From: a virus
DNA length: 32,440 nucleotides
Strand: one strand, 5' to 3'
IMG/VR virus record: IMGVR_UViG_3300021438_000051
Coordinates: 1-32,440 of that record
In this document: piece after piece, positions 1 through 32,440 of the stretch
How the letters are laid out: each line of letters opens with the position of its first letter
Position numbering within the stretch: the stretch's first letter is position 1
The notes under the pieces: model-generated
Databases searched by the model: none
Told to the model about the DNA's origin: nothing
The model's input: only the letters and a program-made list of their open reading frames with translations
Position numbers and translations under genes: made by a program

Positions 1-126
1 AATTTGAAGTTCTATGAGGTTGATGATACTGGTGTCTTATTTCTTCAAAAGGAAGTTAAGGCATATTTATCAGCAATAACTGAGACATCAAGTTTTGACA
101 ATATCAATACTTTTACAGCTGAATTT
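1..126. repeat. Terminal direct repeat, left copy (circular overlap)
   Basis: Bases 1-126 are identical to 32298-32423. The reading frame of the 32010 gene continues correctly across the join, so the repeat marks circular closure of a 32,297-bp molecule rather than two gene copies. This is the usual sign of a circularly permuted or circular phage assembly. Confidence 0.92.
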
Positions 127-168
127 ATAATAGACGGTCCAATAACTGTCACTTATGGAGAAATATAA
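1..168 (+). CDS. C-terminal end of tail-tube-like protein (gene split by the linear ends)
   Basis: This is the 3' part of the gene that begins at 32010. Position 1 falls on a codon boundary of that gene because 1 corresponds to 32298 in the repeated end. The reading frame runs 55 codons to a TAA at 166-168, with the ending FIIDGPITVTYGEI. Joined across the circle, the protein is 151 aa. The last codons overlap nothing, and the next start (ATG at 170) follows one base after the stop, so the fibre gene is likely translationally coupled. The function is discussed under the 5' part. Confidence 0.85.
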   Translation, partial: NLKFYEVDDTGVLFLQKEVKAYLSAITETSSFDNINTFTAEFIIDGPITVTYGEI

Positions 169-169
169 T

Positions 170-3100
170 ATGAAAAAAATAATTATTCTTTTAATGCTAA
201 CCTTTTGCGTTAGCATTTCGTTTGCTCAGTACACGCCAATGACTGCGGCAGGATATCAGTTTAAGCGGATCCTATGCGATTCTACGCTACATATTCCATC
301 TTTCTGTGGTATACCAACGCTGAGAAATTCAACGGCTAAAAACGGCGCAATAGCGATGGATACTTGTAATTTTAAGATTTATATGTGGACTAATGCTGCT
401 GGATGGGGAGAGATTATAGGTGCCGGTACTGACACTACGAGTCTAAGCAACAGGATTGACCAGCGTGTTAAATATACTGACACCGCACAAATGTTACTTG
501 CTTACTTGAGGAAGCAGGACACAGCCAATAAATGGGTAGCAAATGTGACAAAAGTAAATGATAGTACAATCAGAGTTTTTAAAGGCAATACTATTACAGA
601 TTTAAAAATACTTGGAAAGCAAATTGATACTACAAGCCTTAGCAATCGTATTGATCAAAAGTTAGGCAAAGCAGACTCATCAATATATTATACAAAATAC
701 CGTTCAGATACATCAAGAACAAATATTTACAATGCTATAAATAATAAACTTAGCAAATCAGATTCTACAATATATTATACAAAATATCGTTCAGATACAT
801 CAAGAACAAATATCTATAATGCCATTAATCAAAAGTTAAACATTACAGATACAACAAACAAATGGGTCAATAATGTTACAAAAGTTAATGACTCAACGAT
901 ACGAGTATGGAAGGGAACAACATCAACTACAATAGAGCTTCCTCGTGGATCAGGAGGAGGAGGTGGTACTGGAACCGTTTACAATGTATCAACAGGTTAT
1001 GCTTTAAGTGGCGGACCAATCAATACTACAGGCACAATTATAGTTGACTCAGCAGTATTATCTACAAAGTATTTAAGGCGTGCAGATACTTCTAATCTTG
1101 TTGCAACAAAAAGCAATTTAGCTTTAAAATTAAATATCTCAGACAGTGCATTGATGCTTAGTAAATACCTACGCAAGGTCGACACTTTTAGCCTAAGTAA
1201 CCGTATCAATCTTAAGCTTAATATTTCAGACACAACAAATAAATGGGTGGCAAATGTTACAAAAAAGAATGACTCAACAATAACAGTTTACAAAGGAACG
1301 ACAGCAACAGATATAACTTTGCCTCGTGGTGCTGGAGGTGGTGGTTCAGGAACAGTAACAAATGTTGCTACCGGTTATGGCTTGAGTGGTGGACCTATAA
1401 CATCTACTGGAACTGTGATAGTTGACTCAGCAACATTGTCAACTAAATATTTAAGGCGTGCTGATACATCAAATTTAGTAGCAACAAAAAGTAATGTTGC
1501 ATTGAAGCTTAATATTAGTGATACTACTAATAAATTTGTCAATTCAGTCACTAAGATAAACGACACCGCCATTCGCGTTTGGAAGGGGACAACATCATCA
1601 GTAATTTCATTTGCAAAAGATGTGGTCTATACTCAGTCTCCGATAATGAGTAAAATCAGTAATGATAGCAACATAATTTATTTCAATGCTGATACTGCCA
1701 ATGCTTGGCGTGGGGGAGGTAGTGGAACAACGCCTTCACTTCAGGATGTATTAACAGTTGGTAATACTGCATCAAATAAAAATATAGTATTGCAAGAAAG
1801 CACAAATGCTTATAGTTTAAATCTTTCAAGTTCAGATTCATGGTATCCATTTTTATCAATAACAGATCCTGTAACTAATGATGGATATACTGAACTTGTA
1901 GGTGGACAACTATATGTTCAAAGTATTGGTTTAAATAAATCATTACAAATGAATCCTACAGGTGGTTATATGTTTTATGATATTAATACTGCAAAATATG
2001 CTTCAATAGTTGATAGCGGAAGAATTGACAATCAAAAAATAGCTATACCAAAATCATCAGGAACAATAGCATTATCAGTTAATAATATTTTTGCAGATAG
2101 TACTGGAAATATAACAATTACTACTGGCGGCGGTGGTTCAACAGGTCGATTTGGTAATGATACTGCAACGGTGGTGATGGCTAAAGTGCATAACAATTCA
2201 GGAGTGACGCTAACAAATGGTAAGATAGTGGCTTTGTCATCATCAGGTACATCATCAAATGAACCAGCGGTAAGACTTGCGAATAACAAGCATGACTCTA
2301 CATCAGCAAACACACTTGGATTTGTAAGCGGAAGCATTGCAGTTAATGACACAGGATGGGTGATTCTTAGCGGAAAGATTGAGAAGTTGAACACATCAGC
2401 TTTTGCAAATGGTGATATAATTTATCTTGATTCAATATCAGGTGAATGGACAAAATCAAAGCCAGTAGCTCCTTATCATCTTGTCTATCTTGGCGTAGTG
2501 ACAAAAGCAAATGCCGGCAATGGCTCTATATTTGTTAAGCCGCAGAACGGTTATGAGTTAAATGAAATTCATGACGCGAAAATAACTTCTCCATTAAATA
2601 ACCAGGTGCTTGCTTATTCAGATACACAATCACTTTGGAAAAACAGAAATATCTATTCAATAGTTGATACAGTTAATACAATTACTACAAAATATAGAAC
2701 AGATACTTCCCGAACAAATATTTATAATGCAATAAATGGTAAACAAGCAGCTGGTACTTATGTTACATCTGTAAGTGGAACATCACCTATTTCTTCAAGT
2801 GGGGGAACTACTCCAGCAATCAGTATTTCCCAAGCAACAACATCTACTAATGGATATTTAAGTTCTACTGATTGGAATACATTTAATAACAAACAATCTG
2901 TTGACACAACAACTTATTATTTGATATCAGATTTCAATACTACATCCACAACAGGTGCAAATTCAAATCTTACATTCAATTTAGGCGCAAATGAAGTAAG
3001 AAGAATAATGATAGCTGGTACTTGTTCAAAGGCAACTTCATCTACTGGACTTAAAGTTGGTATTGCTGCTCCTACTGGTGCGACTATTAAGGCTTCGGTA

Positions 3101-3337
3101 TATGGTCAGCTTAATACTATTAATGCTACATCAAACAGCATTCTAACTGCCATTAACACTTTAAGTGGTACAATGAATACCGCAATTGCAACGGAAATGC
3201 CATTCAGAATAGAAGGAGTTATCACCAATGGTTCAACGGCAGGAGCAGTCACACTACAACTTGCAACTGTGACTTCAAATACTGCTACAATCTATGCAGG
3301 AACGGTGATGAGTGTTACAAAAGTCAAAGGTCTATAA
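170..3337 (+). CDS. Repeat-rich tail-fibre-like protein with Sec signal peptide
   Basis: This 1055-aa protein is probably a receptor-binding fibre. Residues 1-19 form a clear signal peptide (KK, then a long hydrophobic run, then SFA before Gln), as in exported Bacteroidota proteins. The body is low-complexity Thr/Ser/Asn/Asp. The unit DTxNKWVxxVTKxNDSTIRV starts near residues 117, 227, 354 and 451. KYRSDTSRTNIYNAI occurs near 176, 205 and 841. Two copies of a Gly-rich GTVxNVxTGYxLSGGPI block are present. Around residue 894 is the fibre-type motif NGYLSSTDWNTFNNK. The C-terminal 120 residues look beta-rich. I start it at ATG 170, with GGAG 10 bases upstream; ATG 155 would overlap the previous gene and lengthen the signal peptide. 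The TAATG overlap at 3335-3339 couples it to the next secreted gene. Fibre role is inferred from repeats and position after the hub; export is unusual for a virion part. Confidence 0.75.
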   Translation: MKKIIILLMLTFCVSISFAQYTPMTAAGYQFKRILCDSTLHIPSFCGIPTLRNSTAKNGAIAMDTCNFKIYMWTNAAGWGEIIGAGTDTTSLSNRIDQRVKYTDTAQMLLAYLRKQDTANKWVANVTKVNDSTIRVFKGNTITDLKILGKQIDTTSLSNRIDQKLGKADSSIYYTKYRSDTSRTNIYNAINNKLSKSDSTIYYTKYRSDTSRTNIYNAINQKLNITDTTNKWVNNVTKVNDSTIRVWKGTTSTTIELPRGSGGGGGTGTVYNVSTGYALSGGPINTTGTIIVDSAVLSTKYLRRADTSNLVATKSNLALKLNISDSALMLSKYLRKVDTFSLSNRINLKLNISDTTNKWVANVTKKNDSTITVYKGTTATDITLPRGAGGGGSGTVTNVATGYGLSGGPITSTGTVIVDSATLSTKYLRRADTSNLVATKSNVALKLNISDTTNKFVNSVTKINDTAIRVWKGTTSSVISFAKDVVYTQSPIMSKISNDSNIIYFNADTANAWRGGGSGTTPSLQDVLTVGNTASNKNIVLQESTNAYSLNLSSSDSWYPFLSITDPVTNDGYTELVGGQLYVQSIGLNKSLQMNPTGGYMFYDINTAKYASIVDSGRIDNQKIAIPKSSGTIALSVNNIFADSTGNITITTGGGGSTGRFGNDTATVVMAKVHNNSGVTLTNGKIVALSSSGTSSNEPAVRLANNKHDSTSANTLGFVSGSIAVNDTGWVILSGKIEKLNTSAFANGDIIYLDSISGEWTKSKPVAPYHLVYLGVVTKANAGNGSIFVKPQNGYELNEIHDAKITSPLNNQVLAYSDTQSLWKNRNIYSIVDTVNTITTKYRTDTSRTNIYNAINGKQAAGTYVTSVSGTSPISSSGGTTPAISISQATTSTNGYLSSTDWNTFNNKQSVDTTTYYLISDFNTTSTTGANSNLTFNLGANEVRRIMIAGTCSKATSSTGLKVGIAAPTGATIKASVYGQLNTINATSNSILTAINTLSGTMNTAIATEMPFRIEGVITNGSTAGAVTLQLATVTSNTATIYAGTVMSVTKVKGL

Positions 3338-4938
3338 TGAAAAGAATCTTATTGCTTATATTATTTCTTCCACTGTTATCATTTGGCAGGAAGTTTTATA
3401 TCTCATCAAGTACAGGAAATGATGCCTATACATATCTTCAGGCGCAAAATCCATCTACGCCTTGGAAAACATTATCACATTTAGAAGATATGGCTAATAC
3501 TACACCAAATTCAACTTTTGCAGCTGGCGATACAATAGCTTTTAAAAGAGGTGATGTTTTTGCAAATGGAAGAAATAGAGCTTTTGGCTCTTTTATTTGG
3601 TCCGGGCCTGGAACACCAGGTTGGGGTGGTAATTGTCCAAGTGGTACATTAACAAATCCTATTGTTTTCACTTCTTATGGAATTGGACCTGAAGCTAACA
3701 TATTGTTTCCTTATCCTTCTTCAGTAACGGCTAATGTAAGAAAAGCTATGTTATTTGACAATGTTGGATATATTGTATTTGATAGCCTACAATTTAATGA
3801 TACTCGTTTTTCATACACAGATAAAGTTACATCAGCATATACTTGCAGCGGTCTTGAATTGGGGGAGGGATTTACAGGTGATAATCCATTAAGTGTTCAT
3901 CACATGACAGTTAAAAATTGCATTTTTAGTAATATCAGTTATGGTATTGTTTCAATAGGTAGATACATTACAATTCAAAACAATAGTTTTACGAATTTCA
4001 AAGCTAGTGGTGACACTATTGGAATTAATGATGTTGGTGCAGATGCTATAATGCCAACAGGTTCTCACTATTTAATTAAAAATAATCTTATTCAAGGTAG
4101 TTGGGCTTATGCAAATCCTAATTCATCTTCTGAAGGTAAACTTGGGGGAGGTCTTGAATCTATAAATGATTTTGATAGTAGCTTAATTATTTATAATACT
4201 TTTTTTGATAATTCAGGTGCAATGGAATTTGGACAAAATGCAGGTACACAATATGGTCCAAATGATGATACTTTTGCTTTCAATAAATTCATTAATAATT
4301 TTAATGCTTGTTGGGTAAATGTAGTAGGTCCTTTTGCTTGCACAGCAGCAAGACTTCATTTTTGGAATAATGTCATAATAGAAAATCAAAACAGTCGTCA
4401 TAGTGGACCTAATTTTGGTCAAGATGTTTTAGGTGATGGGCAATCTTTTACTAATTGGAGTTTTTGGCCTTCGTATCCATTAAATGCAAGTAATAATGCA
4501 GCAGGCAGATATTTTGGATATTCAGGAGATCAATATGTGACAGCTGATACTTTATATGATGTCAGAAATAATATAATTTGGAATAATAATAATCAAGCAA
4601 TTAATTATTCTGGTAGGACAAAAATAAAATACAATAATAATCTTTACAGATTAACAAGTGGTTCAACAATTGGTGCTGCTTTAGGTCCTGGAGAAATATC
4701 TACTTTATCAAAGATATTTGTTGATACTACATCCATAAATCCTATGAATTGGGATTTTAATTTAATGGCTGGAAGTCCAGCTATCAGCAATGGGACTTAT
4801 GTAGGAGTTTCACCTGATTATGGAGGAAATACTGTAACTAATCCGCCAAGTATGGGAATCTATAATTATAATATTACGCCTCCAACACCGACAGTTAATA
4901 CATTGAGAGTCAGAAAGAGATTTGTAAATAAGAATTAA
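3337..4938 (+). CDS. Secreted right-handed beta-helix (pectate-lyase-like fold) protein, possible tailspike or depolymerase
   Basis: This is a 533-aa protein. It starts with a signal peptide, MKRILLLILFLPLLSFG, followed by KFYISSSTGNDAYTY. That opening and the later PSTPWKTL are typical of Bacteroidota parallel beta-helix proteins. The middle has the pattern of beta-helix rungs: short Asn- and Ile-rich strands such as LIKNNLIQGSW, IVSIGRYITIQNNSF and VRNNIIWNNN. The C-terminus is basic (RVRKRFVNKN). Its start overlaps the fibre stop (TAATG). Known members of this fold include polysaccharide lyases, hydrolases and phage tailspikes, so capsule or polysaccharide binding or degradation is the likely role. 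No catalytic residues could be assigned by eye. A plain cell-surface or secreted enzyme remains possible. Confidence 0.7.
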   Translation: MKRILLLILFLPLLSFGRKFYISSSTGNDAYTYLQAQNPSTPWKTLSHLEDMANTTPNSTFAAGDTIAFKRGDVFANGRNRAFGSFIWSGPGTPGWGGNCPSGTLTNPIVFTSYGIGPEANILFPYPSSVTANVRKAMLFDNVGYIVFDSLQFNDTRFSYTDKVTSAYTCSGLELGEGFTGDNPLSVHHMTVKNCIFSNISYGIVSIGRYITIQNNSFTNFKASGDTIGINDVGADAIMPTGSHYLIKNNLIQGSWAYANPNSSSEGKLGGGLESINDFDSSLIIYNTFFDNSGAMEFGQNAGTQYGPNDDTFAFNKFINNFNACWVNVVGPFACTAARLHFWNNVIIENQNSRHSGPNFGQDVLGDGQSFTNWSFWPSYPLNASNNAAGRYFGYSGDQYVTADTLYDVRNNIIWNNNNQAINYSGRTKIKYNNNLYRLTSGSTIGAALGPGEISTLSKIFVDTTSINPMNWDFNLMAGSPAISNGTYVGVSPDYGGNTVTNPPSMGIYNYNITPPTPTVNTLRVRKRFVNKN

Positions 4939-4959: not shown

Positions 4960-4990
4960 TTGGTTATTATGCAAAATATAGTTAACTTTA
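4960..4990 (+). promoter_or_regulatory. Bacteroidota-type promoter (TTG / TAACTTTA)
   Basis: TTG at 4960-4962 lies 20 bases before TAACTTTA at 4983-4990, close to the known Bacteroidota -33 TTTG and -7 TAnnTTTG pattern. The box ends five bases before ATG 4996, so a transcript would have almost no leader. It would serve the membrane-protein and lysis genes. Confidence 0.5.
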
Positions 4991-4995
4991 ATAAC

Positions 4996-5187
4996 ATGGA
5001 AAATCATCACGATAGCAATCCTTATCTTGGATTTAGCAGCACTATCATTAGTATTTTCTCGGCTACATTTTGCATGGTTGCGCAAGACTTACAGCCATTT
5101 GCAACTTTAGTCGGCTCTATCGTGGCTATATGCTCAGGTATCTTCGCCATCAGATACTACTATTACGCAACAAAAAAAATAAAGTAA
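4996..5187 (+). CDS. Small two-span membrane protein (holin candidate)
   Basis: This 63-aa protein has a polar N-terminus (MENHHDSNPYLG), a first hydrophobic segment at about residues 12-30, a short DLQP turn, a second segment at about 35-52, and a basic tail (YYYYATKKIK). Two spans and a basic end fit a class II holin, but many Bacteroidota phage membrane peptides look like this. I chose ATG 4996 because the promoter box TAACTTTA ends five bases upstream; ATG 4969 and TTG 4960 are in frame but would start upstream of the box. It is followed after one base by another small membrane protein and lies upstream of the spanin and endolysin genes. Confidence 0.6.
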   Translation: MENHHDSNPYLGFSSTIISIFSATFCMVAQDLQPFATLVGSIVAICSGIFAIRYYYYATKKIK

Positions 5188-5188
5188 C

Positions 5189-5416
5189 ATGAAATCATCA
5201 TTGTTTACATTAAACAAAGCAGACTTTGTAAAGGGACTTGTTATTGCAGTTCTAACGGCAGTAATTACTGTTGTTTACACAACTGTTCAAACCGGTTCAT
5301 TCACTTTTGACTGGAAAGAAATATCAGTTGCTGCATTATCTGCCGCACTTGCATATATCACAAAAAATCTGTTGACTAATTCAAATGACCAATTCCTTAC
5401 TAAGGATCCTGTCTAA
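5189..5416 (+). CDS. Small two-span membrane protein (holin candidate)
   Basis: This 75-aa protein has the opening LNKADFVKG and a hydrophobic segment at about residues 14-33 (VKGLVIAVLTAVITVVYTTV). A short loop, TGSFTFDWKEI, and a second segment at about 48-62 (VAALSAALAYITKNL) follow. The C-terminus is polar. It sits one base after the other two-span protein and four bases before the phosphoesterase, within the late operon that leads to lysis genes. Size and topology suit a holin or anti-holin. I recall similar short proteins in Bacteroidota phages without a proven role, so the holin call is inference from topology and context only. Confidence 0.6.
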   Translation: MKSSLFTLNKADFVKGLVIAVLTAVITVVYTTVQTGSFTFDWKEISVAALSAALAYITKNLLTNSNDQFLTKDPV

Positions 5417-6434: not shown

Positions 6435-6698
6435 ATGACGGAAAAAGTCATAATAGAGGAAAATAATCAGGATGAGGAAGTAGAAGGAGAAGTCATATTC
6501 TCATCCTCTCATGATTACATTGCATCTGCGGTGCAAGCACTTCAAGCCGTTGATGAGATGGATACGGCATTGTTCAACAAGACTGATGAGACAAGAGTGC
6601 GTAAAATTAAACGCCAGTCTCTACGAATATTATCATTTTACATCAATGAAATCTATGAGGAAACTTTTGACGATAGCACTAATAGCAATGATGAGTAG
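6435..6698 (+). CDS. Small acidic protein of unknown function
   Basis: This 87-aa protein starts with a very acidic stretch (IIEENNQDEEVEGEV). A helical middle follows (SAVQALQAVDEMDTALFNKTDE), then a basic patch (RVRKIKRQSLRIL), and the tail is again acidic. There is no signal peptide or membrane segment. The start is just after a TAACTTTA box. Its 3' end overlaps the first 53 bases of the lipoprotein gene, so the two are probably coupled. I know no function for it. The position just before the spanin and endolysin genes suggests a late gene. Confidence 0.6.
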   Translation: MTEKVIIEENNQDEEVEGEVIFSSSHDYIASAVQALQAVDEMDTALFNKTDETRVRKIKRQSLRILSFYINEIYEETFDDSTNSNDE

Positions 6699-7146
6699 TT
6701 GCTATACTTCCAACAAAGCTGAGAAAGACATCAATAAAGCCTATGAGAATTATCCTGAGACAGTCGCAGCCTTTGCGCGTGATAAGTTTCCATGTAAGGA
6801 AACTGGTATCGACACTATTGTCAAGACTGAATACGATTTTATAGAGGTAAGATGTCCTGATCAGCCTGAGCCTACTCAAGTAATTGACACACTTTACTTG
6901 ACAAAACCATCGAGACCTAAGACCTATATTTTATATAAAGACAAATTTGTCGGAATACCAACAACGACTAAAGTCATTACCAAAATTGTCAGAGACAGCA
7001 GTTGCGAGATTCTCCTTAAGAAAAGTGGCGGTCAGTTACAGAAATACATTGATAAAAGTGAGAAGCAATCAGACTGGATTAAATGGCTGTTGATTGCACT
7101 TGGCATATCCTTCATATGTAACATATTATTTGCAATAAAGCGATGA
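6646..7146 (+). CDS. u-spanin-like lipoprotein (lipobox plus C-terminal membrane segment)
   Basis: This 166-aa protein has a lipoprotein signal peptide: MKSMRKLLTIALIAMMSSC, with the lipobox Cys at residue 19. A periplasmic region follows, with FPCKETG, EVRCPDQPEP and TTTKVITKIVRD. A helical segment (ILLKKSGGQLQKYIDKSE) leads to a C-terminal membrane span, WIKWLLIALGISFICNILFAI, and a basic end. An outer-membrane lipid anchor plus an inner-membrane anchor in one chain is the layout of unimolecular spanins (such as phage T1 gp11), which fuse inner and outer membranes at lysis. It directly precedes the endolysin, with an ATGA overlap at 7143. ATG 6655 is an alternative start. Longer upstream extension in this frame lies inside the previous gene and lacks a signal peptide. 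Confidence 0.72.
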   Translation: MKSMRKLLTIALIAMMSSCYTSNKAEKDINKAYENYPETVAAFARDKFPCKETGIDTIVKTEYDFIEVRCPDQPEPTQVIDTLYLTKPSRPKTYILYKDKFVGIPTTTKVITKIVRDSSCEILLKKSGGQLQKYIDKSEKQSDWIKWLLIALGISFICNILFAIKR

Positions 7147-7709
7147 ATGAAATAGCATTTCAGAACAGATTAAAGTCTTATAATCTTTATAATAAGGTTA
7201 CGAGTCATCAACTGCGTGGAATGCTTGCCATTATTGATTATTGCGAGAGTAATAAATTTATTACCGATAAAAGATGGATAGCTTATATGCTCGCTACCGT
7301 CTATCACGAGACCGGCAGAACATTTGAACCAATAGAAGAAGTTGGACAAGGAATCAGAAAGCCATATGGTCGCAAAATAAAGCAGAATCTCAAGCCATAT
7401 CAAATGCCTGACAAATTATATTATGGGCGCGGATTGGTCCAGCTTACCTGGTATGATAATTATGAGCGGTTTGGTAAGTTATTAAAGATAGATTTGTTGA
7501 ATGATCCTGAGTTGGCTCTTAGAATGGATATATCAATACAAATACTTGTCAAAGGAATGACGCAAGGATTATTTACAGGCGTTAATTTGTCGCGGTATTT
7601 CAATGATCAGCGTGAGGATTGGATAAGTGCAAGAAAAATAATAAATGGTCTTGATAGGGCTGAATTAATTGGCTTATATGGCAAAAGATTCTTAGCTTGC
7701 ATATCATAA
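7143..7709 (+). CDS. Endolysin, GH19 (chitinase-like lysozyme) family
   Basis: This 188-aa protein resembles glycoside hydrolase family 19 phage lysozymes, which cut peptidoglycan glycan strands. The motif AYMLATVYHETG carries the likely catalytic Glu56, with further Glu at 65-66 (EPIEE). YYGRGLVQLTWYDNY at about residues 93-107 is the family signature. There is no signal peptide, so release would depend on a holin. The start overlaps the spanin stop (ATGA), which gives a lysis pair. The gene ends at a TAA that is itself the first part of a TAACTTTG box, and a strong terminator follows 42 bases later. The length suits a single catalytic domain without a wall-binding part. Confidence 0.88.
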   Translation: MNEIAFQNRLKSYNLYNKVTSHQLRGMLAIIDYCESNKFITDKRWIAYMLATVYHETGRTFEPIEEVGQGIRKPYGRKIKQNLKPYQMPDKLYYGRGLVQLTWYDNYERFGKLLKIDLLNDPELALRMDISIQILVKGMTQGLFTGVNLSRYFNDQREDWISARKIINGLDRAELIGLYGKRFLACIS

Positions 7710-26062: not shown

Positions 26063-26494
26063 ATGGCAGAACACAAAGTGGCAGGTGGGACAATGTTATT
26101 GTTCATTGATCCTACTGGAGGTACTAACTATGATACCGTTGTTTGTTTAACATCTGTATCAAAATCAGCATCAGTTTCGGTTGTAGATGCTTCATCAGCT
26201 TGCGGACCTGACAAAAGTCCTGGTACTATTGAATTGTCTTATAGTTTTGAAGGACAGCATTTGCAAGATCCTACAACAGGTAAGATTTCGGGTACGAGTC
26301 TCCGTCAGTTGTTGATGAGTAAAGCTACAATAGCTTGGAGCATTGAGCCTGAGAGTCCAGTAACCGGTGATGAGATTGAGTATGGTACAGGTTATATATC
26401 TGAGTTAAGCTCACAGTACAATTTTGACTCAGTCGGGACATTCACAGGAGTCATACAGCCCTATAACACCCCAACTATTGAAATAGAGCCATAA
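26063..26494 (+). CDS. Major tail (tube) protein, first copy
   Basis: This 143-aa protein begins MAEHKVAGGTMLLFIDPTGG and contains DASSACGPDKSPG, FEGQHLQDPTTGKISG and GYISELSSQYN. It is compact and strand-rich, and in the position of the tail tube gene (after the terminator, before the chaperones). By hand count about 96 of its first 137 residues are identical to the next gene product, so the pair arose by tandem duplication. Tube function is inferred from position, size and the ETGxISELS-type ending often seen in major tail proteins. It is the basic version, without extra domain. Confidence 0.7.
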   Translation: MAEHKVAGGTMLLFIDPTGGTNYDTVVCLTSVSKSASVSVVDASSACGPDKSPGTIELSYSFEGQHLQDPTTGKISGTSLRQLLMSKATIAWSIEPESPVTGDEIEYGTGYISELSSQYNFDSVGTFTGVIQPYNTPTIEIEP

Positions 26495-26495
26495 T

Positions 26496-27392
26496 ATGTC
26501 AGAACATAAAGTCCAAGGCGGCAATATGCTGCTTTTCATTGATCCTAATGGAGGCACGAACTATGATATGGTTGTATGTCTCACAAGTGTAGGCGTAAGC
26601 ATGAGCGTTCAGCCTGTTGATGCTTCATCCGCTTGTGGTCCTGATAAATCACCAGGAGCGTTGGATATTTCTTACAATTTTGAAGGTCAGCATTTGCAAG
26701 ATCCTAATAGTGGAAGGATTAGCGGAACAGATTTGAGAATCTTGTTAAATGCTGAGCAGACTATTGGTTGGAAGTTATCACCCGAAACGCCAGTAGATGG
26801 GGATGAGATTCAGGAAGGGACTGGCTTTATATCTGAATTGAGCAGCACATATAATTATTCAGAAGTTGGTACTTTTTCAGGATCTATAATGCCTTATGGC
26901 ACGCCTACGGTAAGTGTTTATGGTGGTGGCGGTGGAGGATTAGTTATAGGTCAAGCATATCAAGGGGGTACTATTGCATATTTAGATGGAACTAATACTC
27001 ATGGCATTATAATAGCATGGAATAGTTCAGCAATGATTTACAATATATGGGGAAGTACAGGAATTGTTGTAGGTGCTAATGCTGACACTTTATATAATGG
27101 TATTTATAATTCAGATTTAATTGCAGCTTTGTTTCCTGGATCTCCAGCATATGATTGCAGACAATTAACACAAGGAGGTTATACAGATTGGTGTTTACCT
27201 ACAGCAGCAGATTGGTATGCAATGCAGCCTAATTGTACAACAGTTGGTATAGATCCTTCTGGATCATATTGGACATCAATAGAAAATTTTGGAGATCCGG
27301 ACAATGCTTTAATTTTTAATCCGATAATAAATTCATCATTAATATCTGGGAAAAATGGAGCAGCTGCATTTGTTGCAGTAAGATATTTTTAA
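26496..27392 (+). CDS. Second tail tube paralogue fused to a DUF1566-like domain
   Basis: In this 298-aa protein, residues 1-140 repeat the tube protein encoded just upstream (about 70% identical by hand count). A GGGGGG linker at 143-148 leads to a domain of about 145 residues. Its features are GQAYQGGTIAYLDGTNTHGI, IWGSTGIVVGA, GGYTDWCLPTAADWYAM and SYWTSIEN. These match the DUF1566 (Lcl) family, a C-type-lectin-like fold found in surface and adhesin proteins. The domain would decorate the outside of the tail tube, much as the Ig-like domain of lambda gpV does. The DNA of the domain is more AT-rich than the tube part, which suggests separate acquisition. Confidence 0.72.
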   Translation: MSEHKVQGGNMLLFIDPNGGTNYDMVVCLTSVGVSMSVQPVDASSACGPDKSPGALDISYNFEGQHLQDPNSGRISGTDLRILLNAEQTIGWKLSPETPVDGDEIQEGTGFISELSSTYNYSEVGTFSGSIMPYGTPTVSVYGGGGGGLVIGQAYQGGTIAYLDGTNTHGIIIAWNSSAMIYNIWGSTGIVVGANADTLYNGIYNSDLIAALFPGSPAYDCRQLTQGGYTDWCLPTAADWYAMQPNCTTVGIDPSGSYWTSIENFGDPDNALIFNPIINSSLISGKNGAAAFVAVRYF

Positions 27393-27772: not shown

Positions 27773-28056
27773 GCAAATTAGGATGGTCAGCATATCAGTA
27801 CTATACATCTCTTCCGATTGAGTTCTATGCAGCTGTTGAAGGATATTTAGAAAAGCAAACTGAACAGGCGAAAGTCCTTCGGTTTGCTTCATTTCGTATA
27901 GCAGAGAGCATGGCAGGAAGCAAAGCAGTTGGTTCAATAGAAAGGTTTTGGCCTATGGCTAATGATGAACCGGTTAAGAAGATTGAACCAATGACAAAGG
28001 ATAGATACGAGGCAATTTTGAAGCGTCACAATATAAAAATGAAAACGGATGGCTGA
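27410..28056 (+). CDS. Frameshifted tail assembly chaperone (gpGT-like fusion)
   Basis: A -1 shift at the nine-A run (27722-27730) lets translation continue from the codon at 27730 to TGA 28054-28056. This adds 108 codons for a total of about 215 aa. The added part reads SSREQCFDNLKFALGKLGWS, then YYTSLPIEFYAAVEGYLEKQ, and ends RHNIKMKTDG. The frame has no start of its own, fills the otherwise empty gap 27773-28048, and its stop overlaps the tape measure start by eight bases. This is the standard expression mode for siphovirus chaperones. GGAG at 27701-27704 may stimulate slipping. Confidence 0.82.
27722..27731 (+). promoter_or_regulatory. Slippery site for -1 ribosomal frameshift
   Basis: Nine A followed by G, read in frame as AAA AAA AAA GTA. 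Slipping back one base keeps Lys-tRNA pairing fully intact and opens the 108-codon downstream frame. Confidence 0.8.
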
Positions 28057-29707
28057 AGAAATAAAGATAGTAGCGTCAGCGGTCGGATTTGACCAGGTCA
28101 ATAAGGCATTAGATAATACAACTAAATCTTTAACTCAGACATCTCAAGCTGCTACTCAAGCAGGAAAGGCATTAGGAAATGAATTAAAAGTTGCAACTGG
28201 TTCTGCATCTTCTGCAGTTACAAATTTATCAAGAATTGTATCTGATTCAGCATATGGTTTTATAGGTATTGCAAATAATATACAGCCATTTATTGACTCA
28301 TTAGGTTATGCTAAAAAAGAAGCTCAGGCAACTGGTACTTCTATGAAGGATAATCTTGTTGCAGCTTTAACTGGTGCTGGTGGTTTATCACTTGCTTTTG
28401 CTGCAGTTACAACAGCCATTACATTTGCTCAGATTGGTTTTAGTGCTTGGACAAGAGGAAGTAAAGATACTAAGAGTTCTATTGATTCAATGGATGAATC
28501 AACGAGAAACTTATCAATAGATATAAAGAATTTAGGAGAAGATTTAAAGGCTGTCAAAATACAATTTGATTTAATTAAAGAATATAAGACTCTTGAATTT
28601 GATATAAAATTTGGTAAAGGATATACATCAGATTTAAAGATGGCAGAACTTGATGTAACTCAATTAGGTTACGCTCAAGATTTTGCAAGAAATGAATTTG
28701 CTAAATCAAGAAAGGCTTGGGATGATGCAAATGCTGCTTTATATAGTTTTACACAAACTCAGAAATCAAATATATCATTATGGGATGAGTCAACTAATAG
28801 TTTTGCAGATGCAGTTTCTAAATTAGGAGATTTAACAAATGTTACATCAGCTAATCTTAGCGGTTTTACTGATGAACAAAAGGTATATGTTCAGAATGTA
28901 ATTGATGCTGGTAAAAAATTAACTGAATTAAGAGATAAATATTATTCTTATAATGATCAAATATCACTTGCTAAATTAAGAGTTGAGGCTTTAAAAGATG
29001 CTGAAAAAAGAAGATTAGAAGAATTAAAAAAGGGATTACCAATATTTGAGCGTGATTTAAAGTTTAAACCGATTAAGGTTCAAAAAATTGAAGTAAATTA
29101 TGATTATAAGAAATTAAAACCAATAGAAATTCCTGTTCTTCCTGAATTACCTCCTATACCATTAAACTTTGAAATATCTCAAGACCAACTTGACAAATTA
29201 AATGCTGTATTCCAAAATGCAGCTGAGAATATTGCGGTAGGTTTTGGTGAAACTTTAGCAGCAGCATTATCAGGACAGGCTACTATTGGAGACTTTTTTA
29301 AAGGAATATTTCAAGAGGTTGGCTCTGCAATGATTGCTTTTGGTAAATTGATGATAAAGTTTGCTATTCAAGTTGAGGCTATAAAGAAATTTGTTCTTGC
29401 AAATCCATTTCTTGCCATTGCAGGTGCAGTTGCTTTGATAGCATTAGGTAATTTGATAAAAAATGCAACTAAAACGCCAGCCTTCGCAGTCGGTACACGT
29501 TATGCTCCTGGTGGTATGGCTTTAGTGGGTGAGAGAGGTCCAGAGATGATTAATCTGCCTCGTGGTTCTCAGGTGATACCTGCAGCACAGACATCGCAAA
29601 TGATGGGTGGAATAGGAGGAGCAATAGAGGTATTTGGAATGCTTAGAGGTCAAGATATTTATTTTAGTAATAAAAAGTACGGTCAAACTTATAAACGCAC
29701 AACTTAA
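28049..29707 (+). CDS. Tape measure protein (short)
   Basis: This 552-aa protein determines tail length and is probably ejected ahead of the DNA. It has an N-terminal helical region with Ala/Thr-rich heptads (VNKALDNTTKSLTQTSQAAT). A hydrophobic segment lies near residues 105-130 (GAGGLSLAFAAVTTAITFAQ), followed by coiled-coil regions and a Pro-rich stretch, IPVLPELPPIPL. A second hydrophobic region (NPFLAIAGAVALIALGNLI) leads to the common C-terminal module ALVGERGPEMINLPRGSQVI. At roughly 1.5 angstrom per residue it would give a tail of about 80 nm, shorter than many siphoviruses. It overlaps its neighbours at both ends. Confidence 0.85.
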   Translation: MAEEIKIVASAVGFDQVNKALDNTTKSLTQTSQAATQAGKALGNELKVATGSASSAVTNLSRIVSDSAYGFIGIANNIQPFIDSLGYAKKEAQATGTSMKDNLVAALTGAGGLSLAFAAVTTAITFAQIGFSAWTRGSKDTKSSIDSMDESTRNLSIDIKNLGEDLKAVKIQFDLIKEYKTLEFDIKFGKGYTSDLKMAELDVTQLGYAQDFARNEFAKSRKAWDDANAALYSFTQTQKSNISLWDESTNSFADAVSKLGDLTNVTSANLSGFTDEQKVYVQNVIDAGKKLTELRDKYYSYNDQISLAKLRVEALKDAEKRRLEELKKGLPIFERDLKFKPIKVQKIEVNYDYKKLKPIEIPVLPELPPIPLNFEISQDQLDKLNAVFQNAAENIAVGFGETLAAALSGQATIGDFFKGIFQEVGSAMIAFGKLMIKFAIQVEAIKKFVLANPFLAIAGAVALIALGNLIKNATKTPAFAVGTRYAPGGMALVGERGPEMINLPRGSQVIPAAQTSQMMGGIGGAIEVFGMLRGQDIYFSNKKYGQTYKRTT

Positions 29708-32009: not shown

Positions 32010-32432
32010 ATGGCAAATAAGGTAAGAGGAATAGATGTAGTATTGACAATAAAGTCACCTGATGATCTTGATTATATTCCTATTGCCTGTGCCAGGTCAA
32101 TTACTTTTAATATTAATAGAGAATTTGTTGAGACTACAACTATTGGTGACGGATTTTTTAAAACTTATTTCCCATCTGTAATATCAATGACGGCAACGGT
32201 TGAAGGTTTGGTTCTGCTTGGTAAAGAATTAGATTTGACTTACAATATGGGTAGGATTTATGATTTGTTGATTAACTTACCTGGAGGCAATCACTTTAAT
32301 TTGAAGTTCTATGAGGTTGATGATACTGGTGTCTTATTTCTTCAAAAGGAAGTTAAGGCATATTTATCAGCAATAACTGAGACATCAAGTTTTGACAATA
32401 TCAATACTTTTACAGCTGAATTTCTATTATAA
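32010..32432 (+). CDS. Tail-tube-like protein, 5' part (continues at 1-168)
   Basis: The first 138 codons (to 32423) are true phage sequence. The linear reading ends TAEFLL at 32432 only because the final 17 bases are a foldback. On the circle the frame continues at base 127 and stops at 166-168, for 151 aa. The protein has strands with TIGDGFFKTYFPSVISMTATVEGLV, a pattern like that of TP901-1-type major tail proteins, and an N-terminal ANKVRGIDVVLTIKSPDD. Lying between the hub and the fibre, it may be a tail-tip or baseplate ring protein with the tube fold. It shares no clear residue-level similarity with the tandem tube pair. Confidence 0.7.
   Translation: MANKVRGIDVVLTIKSPDDLDYIPIACARSITFNINREFVETTTIGDGFFKTYFPSVISMTATVEGLVLLGKELDLTYNMGRIYDLLINLPGGNHFNLKFYEVDDTGVLFLQKEVKAYLSAITETSSFDNINTFTAEFLL
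32298..32423. repeat. Terminal direct repeat, right copy
   Basis: Identical to bases 1-126. See the left copy for the meaning. Confidence 0.92.
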
Positions 32433-32440
32433 ATTCAGCT
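32424..32440. other. Inverted foldback tail, likely assembly artefact
   Basis: The last 17 bases, CTATTATAAATTCAGCT, are the exact reverse complement of 117-133. After 32423 the true sequence should read on as at 127 (ATAATAGACGG). The switch to the other strand occurs within an AT-rich stretch and forms a false hairpin with 32414-32423. It truncates the gene at 32010 with a false stop. Confidence 0.85.

Follow-up and report, generated by a model that had tools for sequence, protein, structure and literature searches.

Gene content of the window

The stretch of DNA analysed in this study (the window; 32,440 nucleotides, IMG/VR record IMGVR_UViG_3300021438_000051) is a circular phage genome of approximately 32.3 kb, with a 126-bp overlap of its ends (bases 1-126 are the same as bases 32298-32423). 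The final 17 bases of the window are a fold-back artefact from the assembly. The G+C content was low (0.357), and the gene set was of the siphovirus type, comprising genes for a terminase, a portal, a MuF protein, a protease, adaptors, tail tube proteins and a tape measure protein. The two open reading frames reported in the initial annotation, one for a fibre-like protein and one for a beta-helix protein (the helix protein), were both found where they had been placed, coupled by a TAATG overlap (Table 1). The fibre start at position 170 lies two bases from the end of the tail-tube-like gene TT3, and the leader of the fibre is kept with either of the two candidate starts. On the 3' side of the helix gene are two holin-like genes, a metallophosphoesterase gene, and the genes for a spanin-like lipoprotein and for a GH19 endolysin, the latter without a leader.

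Table 1. Positions of the fibre and helix genes, their parts and the neighbouring tail and lysis genes in the window.
Feature	Position	Strand	Remarks
Fibre gene, 1055-aa preprotein	170..3337	+	Closes the tail module; alternative start at 155
Predicted fibre Sec/SPase I leader, MKKIIILLMLTFCVSISFA	170..226	+	Predicted cut before Gln20, mature QYTPM
Fibre mature N-terminal domain (N-domain), residues 20-86	227..427	+	Phage-only family
Invariant Cys46 codon	305..307	+	69/69; possible disulphide with Cys66
Invariant Cys66 codon	365..367	+	69/69
Fibre C-terminal module, residues 669-910	2174..2899	+	Common to leaderless fibres of other phages
TAATG stop/start overlap, fibre-helix coupling	3335..3339	+	TAA at 3335-3337, ATG from 3337
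Right-handed beta-helix protein, 533-aa preprotein	3337..4938	+	Open reading frame and structure model
Predicted helix Sec/SPase I leader, MKRILLLILFLPLLSFG	3337..3387	+	Predicted mature start RKFYI
Two small holin-like membrane proteins	4960..5416 (4960-5187, 5189-5416)	+	Lysis cassette begins here
Spanin-like lipoprotein, lipobox MRKLLTIALIAMMSSC	6655..7146	+	Leader caller
GH19-type endolysin	7143..7709	+	Domain match; no leader (holin needed)
Tape measure protein	28049..29707	+	No leader (leader caller)
Tail tip/hub-like protein, 765 aa	29707..32004	+	No leader; phage-only family
TT3, tail-tube-like gene 5' of the fibre gene	32010..32423 then 1..168	+	Spans the circular joint 32297/1; stop at 166-168

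Neither the fibre nor the helix protein had a match in Pfam, PHROGs or NCBIfam. Part of the C-terminal module of the fibre (residues 669-910) matched proteins annotated as tail fibres in various phages, among them phages of Synechococcus and Pseudomonas. For the helix protein, AlphaFold2 predicted a right-handed parallel beta-helix over the first ~350 residues (pTM 0.65), with low confidence for the last 180 residues. The best Foldseek matches to this model were GH136 lacto-N-biosidases and PL6 and PL9 lyases, followed lower down by the HK620 tailspike; among viral models, the matches were tailspikes and pectate-lyase proteins. Judging from the modelled fold, it is plausible that the helix protein binds or cleaves sugar. 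The earlier suggestion that it acts on surface polysaccharide is consistent with this likeness to sugar-acting enzymes.

Leaders, the fibre N-terminal domain and its genomic slot

Leaders were called with a rule-based caller, using both negative and positive controls. In the N-termini of the fibre and of the helix protein, a basic n-region is followed by a strongly hydrophobic h-region (mean Kyte-Doolittle value over ten residues of 3.1 and 3.3, respectively) and by a small residue ahead of the cleavage site. In the window, the caller was positive only for these two proteins and for the spanin-like lipoprotein, and no leader was called in the head, neck, tube, tape measure or tip genes. In related contigs, no leader was called in the genes for the MCP (0/9), adaptor (0/10), closure (0/21), tail tube (0/26 and 0/18), tape measure protein (TMP; 0/37) or tip protein (0/43), and a leader was called in one of 44 TT3 genes; the spanin-like lipoproteins of these contigs, used as the positive control, were called in 50 of 52 cases. 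No lipobox with a cysteine at +1 was present on the fibre or the helix protein, and both were called as SPase I type. A type IX C-terminal secretion domain (Por_Secre_tail type) was also sought in both proteins, and gave no Pfam match up to an E-value of 0.1. The signal peptides proposed for both proteins in the initial annotation were thus borne out by a caller with clean controls, and the mature end given there for the fibre, QYTPM, agrees with the predicted cleavage site. For the helix protein two mature ends had been offered, and RKFYI is preferred to KFYI because A/RKFY or G/RKFY (cut at the slash) is conserved in the clear relatives of this protein.

A scan with the whole fibre retrieved two kinds of relatives. 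Those with the N-terminal domain all carry a leader, and those with the C-terminal module alone start without one. When the N-domain was used for the scan, 140 relatives were found in IMG/VR, of which 80 were kept, and none was found in 84,980 bacterial and archaeal species genomes; this domain defines a phage-only family. The HMM used for counting leaders covered the mature domain alone, which kept the leader from biasing the search. A leader was present in all 62 distinct intact members, and in two further members, cut at the contig start, the end of the leader was still visible. Homologues lacking the hydrophobic leader, named at the outset as evidence that would speak against export, were absent inside the N-domain family and occurred only where the N-domain had also been replaced.

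Glutamine at +1 is a mark of Bacteroidetes SPase I substrates, at an average of 71% across species (PMC5837995). The fibre has the features of this Q-rule: its n-region is basic, its h-region is hydrophobic, a small residue stands at -1, and +1 is Gln. In the family, Gln occupies +1 in 62 of 62 leaders, and -1 is Ala or Gly in 55 of 62. The leaders are all strongly hydrophobic, with a mean mutual identity of ~25%, and as Gln+1 is nevertheless found throughout, it is the property and not the sequence that appears to be selected. These hydrophobic leaders with their constant Gln+1 indicate that a phage gene obeys the export rule of its host. Conversion of the glutamine to pyroglutamate is said to stabilise exported Bacteroidetes proteins (PMC10653852). 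As a prediction from sequence, the case for an export signal and for the conservation of the leaders is strong, and the export of both proteins envisaged in the initial annotation is well supported by the conserved property of the leader, the constant Gln+1 of the fibre family and the clean negative controls.

Fifteen residues of the N-domain are invariant (M24, Y29, R33, D37, S38, P43, C46, G47, P49, A60, A62, D64, C66, Y71 and W79). The two cysteines, Cys46 and Cys66, were present in 69 of 69 sequences, and in several proteins they are the sole cysteines of the mature chain. This suggests a disulphide, which would be possible only with export. The structure model of the N-domain was poor (pLDDT 65) and was not used.

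Relatives of the helix protein were few in IMG/VR. Five distinct, clear, full-length relatives were found, all with a leader followed by RKFY, and a sixth, weak match (L164) has a Q-rule leader of its own. The helix leader of the window departs from the Q-rule, as it has R at +1. The clear relatives end in a similar short basic C-terminus, including those with additional domains inserted before it.

In approximately 85 contigs, the leader-bearing fibre gene ended the tail module, with the lysis genes directly on its 3' side, and the gene order was fixed (TMP-tip-TT3-fibre-lysis). A second tail type has the fibre in the same slot, and its tape measure, tip and tube proteins are without detectable similarity to those of the window. 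In some contigs a second leader-bearing gene follows the fibre gene. This second gene encodes the helix protein in L002, L086 and L160; a 289-aa leader-bearing protein with an arabinofuranosidase-type domain is encoded in L139-L141, and a 144-aa leader-bearing protein in L145. As these contigs had been chosen by their fibre, the sampling was repeated with the tip protein, which itself has no relatives in the 84,980 bacterial and archaeal species genomes. A leader-bearing N-domain gene was found in 35 of the 37 tip-sampled loci that extend past TT3. The same slot in the other two loci (L188 and L193) holds a fibre beginning MKISELxLAGxIAGTEVFPIVQ, without a leader and without the N-domain, and the holin and phosphoesterase genes of these two loci closely resemble those of the window. 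In the virion fibre slot, the N-domain and its leader are acquired or lost as a unit.

Leader-bearing proteins of cultured phages

The N-domain, the helix protein and the tip protein were all absent from the isolated phages of INPHARED, and relatives of the helix protein were likewise absent from GenBank phages. A comparable arrangement was found in gene clusters of Cellulophaga baltica phages (phi10:1, phi19:1, phi39:1 and phi18:3; also phi46:3, phi19:3, Ingeline and Nekkels), which occupy the same slot between the distal tail genes and the lysis genes. As in the window, the fibre and lyase genes stand in tandem; almost all of them have Q-rule leaders, and virion MS/MS records exist for four of the phages. 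In contrast to the window, the clusters consist of two to five genes, the mature N-domain is without significant relation to their proteins, and the invariant cysteine pair was not seen. In phi10:1, the distal tail genes are followed by five consecutive genes whose leaders have Gln at +1, and the same block contains four leader genes in phi19:1, two in phi39:1 and three in phi18:3. A comparison of the N-domain with the Cellulophaga leader proteins by hhalign gave a probability of 65% with the leaders included, and of 7% (single sequence) and 23% (three sequences) without them, with shuffle controls of at most 2%. As the comparison was not significant once the leaders were removed, homology to the Cellulophaga proteins is not claimed.

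According to notes in the GenBank records, from which MS/MS status was taken and where such detection can include adsorbed periplasmic protein, 13 of the 59 virion proteins recorded in five phages have leaders, 12 of them with Gln at +1. All 13 belong to the fibre/pectate-lyase block, and none is a head, neck, tube or tape measure protein. The MS/MS records reportedly stem from Holmfeldt 2013 (PNAS). The lyase module of phi10:1 gp093 is found with a leader in siphoviruses and Pachyviridae, whereas in phi4:1 and the crAss-like phage phi14:2 the same module is leaderless, joined to another N-terminus, and recorded in virions. One adhesin module therefore appears to have two routes to the virion. 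Within a given phage, the export route or the leaderless route is chosen for the whole block.

The leaders on the lyase proteins of Ingeline and Nekkels have been mentioned previously, without comment on assembly (PMC8776804), and no mechanism for the Cellulophaga leader clusters has been proposed in the literature searched. Phages of Porphyromonas gingivalis (Nixviridae) also encode proteins with Q-rule SPase I leaders; these differ from the proteins of the window in coming from five genes without an assigned function, which were interpreted as possibly altering the host surface and were not described as fibres or virion proteins (PMC10367356). Beyond these two partial precedents, the literature searched contained no description of tail fibres exported by Sec, nor of adhesins that dock at lysis, in agreement with the earlier remark that no described mechanism covers this arrangement. 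Ordinary fibres and tailspikes, such as the HK620 tailspike, resemble the proteins of the window in gene position, repeat-rich architecture, C-terminal module and beta-helix fold. They differ in lacking leaders and in being both synthesised and put together in the cytoplasm, whereas the leader is obligate in the family of the window. The coat proteins of filamentous phages are a further likeness, as these are virion proteins that cross the inner membrane by means of a signal sequence, but filamentous phages are extruded as they assemble in the membrane, and the window encodes a tailed phage equipped with lysis genes. What is new is the unexpected route of delivery; tail adhesins themselves are already known.

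Proposed delivery of the adhesins to the virion

Tailed phages are taught to finish their assembly in the cytoplasm. For the phage of the window, it is considered fairly probable that the fibre and the helix protein are exported, cleaved, periplasm-held virion adhesins, which are docked on the tails at or after lysis. The fibre and its tailspike-like beta-helix companion would be the host-binding parts of a siphovirus-type Bacteroidota phage. Both would be made as Sec preproteins, from which SPase I cuts off the leader; the exposed Gln of the fibre would be converted to pyroglutamate by the host, and the fibre would fold in the periplasm, where Cys46 and Cys66 could form a disulphide. As no type IX tail and no lipobox were recognised, both proteins would wait in the periplasm. 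By analogy with the leader-bearing Cellulophaga proteins, the fibre and the helix protein are probably present in the virion, and a protein that is both exported and a virion part can join the particle only once the inner membrane has failed. The holin, the leaderless GH19 endolysin and the spanin, in breaking the envelope, would create a stage at which cytoplasm-built virions and periplasmic fibres are mixed inside the outer membrane. The N-domain may dock the fibre on the tail tip (perhaps on TT3 or the tip protein) in this mixing stage or just outside, during or just after lysis.

Since the leader is kept in all relatives with this fibre head, and fibres with a similar tag have been recorded from the purified particles of cultured phages, the host-binding parts are probably added only at bursting. 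Fibres and tailspikes of other phages attach last, and also attach in vitro. The proposal in the initial annotation that the proteins attach to virions late gained indirect support from the MS/MS-recorded Cellulophaga analogues and from the leaderless fibre that takes the slot in L188 and L193; the late docking step itself is an inference. Several points count against the proposed delivery. Presence in the virion is argued from analogues, and MS/MS may pick up adsorbed proteins. Unless docking takes place inside the dying cell, it would suffer in efficiency from the dilution that comes with lysis. In addition, no leader-bearing block was found in B40-8, 11b, phi12:1, phi46:1, P2559Y or 6H, and leaderless fibres suffice in the first five of these, as they do in phi4:1 and phi14:2. 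For the wider proposal, that a large set of Bacteroidota tailed phages builds its virions in two compartments, with the head and tail made in the cytoplasm, the adhesins completed in the periplasm (after Sec export, cleavage and oxidative folding) and the two joined only at lysis, and with N-terminal exchange switching an adhesin module between export and cytoplasmic mounting, the arguments appear evenly balanced.

A leader alone tells only of export, and the two proteins might instead be non-virion proteins located in the periplasm, at the surface or on debris, where they would block receptors, serve as decoys or, as polysaccharide enzymes, aid spread. The helix fold, which is akin to secreted lyases and glycosidases, and the arabinofuranosidase-type domain of the second-slot protein in L139 would suit such a role. 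This reading is nevertheless rather unlikely: in every locus the slot is that of the last tail gene, in L188 and L193 the fibre placed there has no leader, virion records exist for the analogous leader proteins of Cellulophaga phages, and phi4:1 and phi14:2 carry the same lyase module as a leaderless virion protein. Dual localisation with two roles, in which some of the fibre is not exported and undergoes the cytoplasmic assembly that is the norm for tailed phages, was judged improbable. It might arise from an inefficient leader or from an internal start at Met24, which is invariant (69/69) and lies just past the leader. An internal start would drop the Gln+1 that is kept in 62 of 62 members, and the upstream composition gave it no support, with an A-richness of 0.31 upstream of Met24, compared with 0.37 at true starts and 0.345 at other internal Met codons. 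The hydrophobic N-terminus could also stay uncleaved, serving the fibre as a helix for structure or docking, or acting as a membrane-active segment in the next infection, given that other N-terminal docking domains occupy this place in related phages. This is very improbable, because a docking helix needs no basic start, no small residues at -3 and -1 and no constant Gln+1, and because leaders of ~25% identity are too divergent for a docking surface. That these are host-derived surface-protein genes (morons), lying beside the tail module by chance, is scarcely credible in spite of their host-like Q-rule leaders and the occurrence of such genes in Porphyromonas phages (PMC10367356), since the N-domain and tip protein lack relatives in the 84,980 genomes, the slot within the late gene block is fixed in all loci, and the fibre module is common to the tail fibres of other phages.

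If docking of exported adhesins at lysis is correct, the last assembly step of many Bacteroidota phages falls at lysis, and disulphides and pyroglutamate become available to their adhesins. Infected cells may then display or leak free adhesin ahead of bursting, and infectivity would rely on the host SPase I, and perhaps on glutaminyl cyclase. Recombinant receptor-binding proteins of such phages should then be made without the leader, perhaps under oxidising conditions. The cultured Cellulophaga phages offer a direct test system for the export-first idea, and a Q-rule leader encoded between the tail tip and the holin would serve as a marker for host-binding genes in uncultured Bacteroidota phages.

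Contig ends and tail-tube-like genes

The window ends overlap by 126 bp (1-126 against the 32298-32440 region) and the contig is circular. As the final window bases fold back on themselves, the apparent end at 32432 of TT3, the tail-tube-like gene between the tip gene and the fibre gene, is false, and its real end is at 168. TT3, located after the tip gene, is the third tube-like gene of the window; the second member of the adjacent pair of paralogues has an additional C-terminal domain.

An additional stretch of ~75 residues was observed in TT3 of L188 and L193, relatives in which a leaderless fibre replaces the exported one. This stretch is possibly a docking site for the leaderless fibre type. 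However, longer TT3 forms were also found alongside exported fibres.

Coordinates of tail-tube-like and leader-bearing genes
Feature	Location	Position
Tail-tube paralogue, first of adjacent pair	window 26063-26494	
Tail-tube paralogue, second of adjacent pair	window 26496-27392	
TT3	L188:8088-8786	
TT3	L193:8064-8747	
289-aa leader-bearing protein	L139:11634-12500	directly after fibre
147-aa Q-rule protein, Flavobacterium phage FCL-2	L183:45363-45806	

The helix slot and helix relatives

In L139-L141, the place of the beta-helix protein was held by the 289-aa protein, which matched an arabinofuranosidase-B-like catalytic domain (Pfam PF09206, E 2e-8). The helix relative of L163 (and L027) contained repeated additional domains, fibronectin-III-like as judged by eye, between the beta-helix and the basic C-terminus with its conserved motif NSFRTRKKYVQKL. 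These domains are inserted upstream of the basic C-terminus, and the short motif therefore stays at the extreme end.

Further Q-rule leader genes

The FCL-2 protein, with Gln at +1 after the predicted SPase I cleavage site (leader MKTIVITLLLSISTYS, mature start QVGIATTTPTETLDVNG), was similar to host surface 'tail fibre domain' proteins. L076 and L164 carry additional leader genes that follow the Q-rule and lie in tandem; their sequence is fibre-like and lacks the N-domain.
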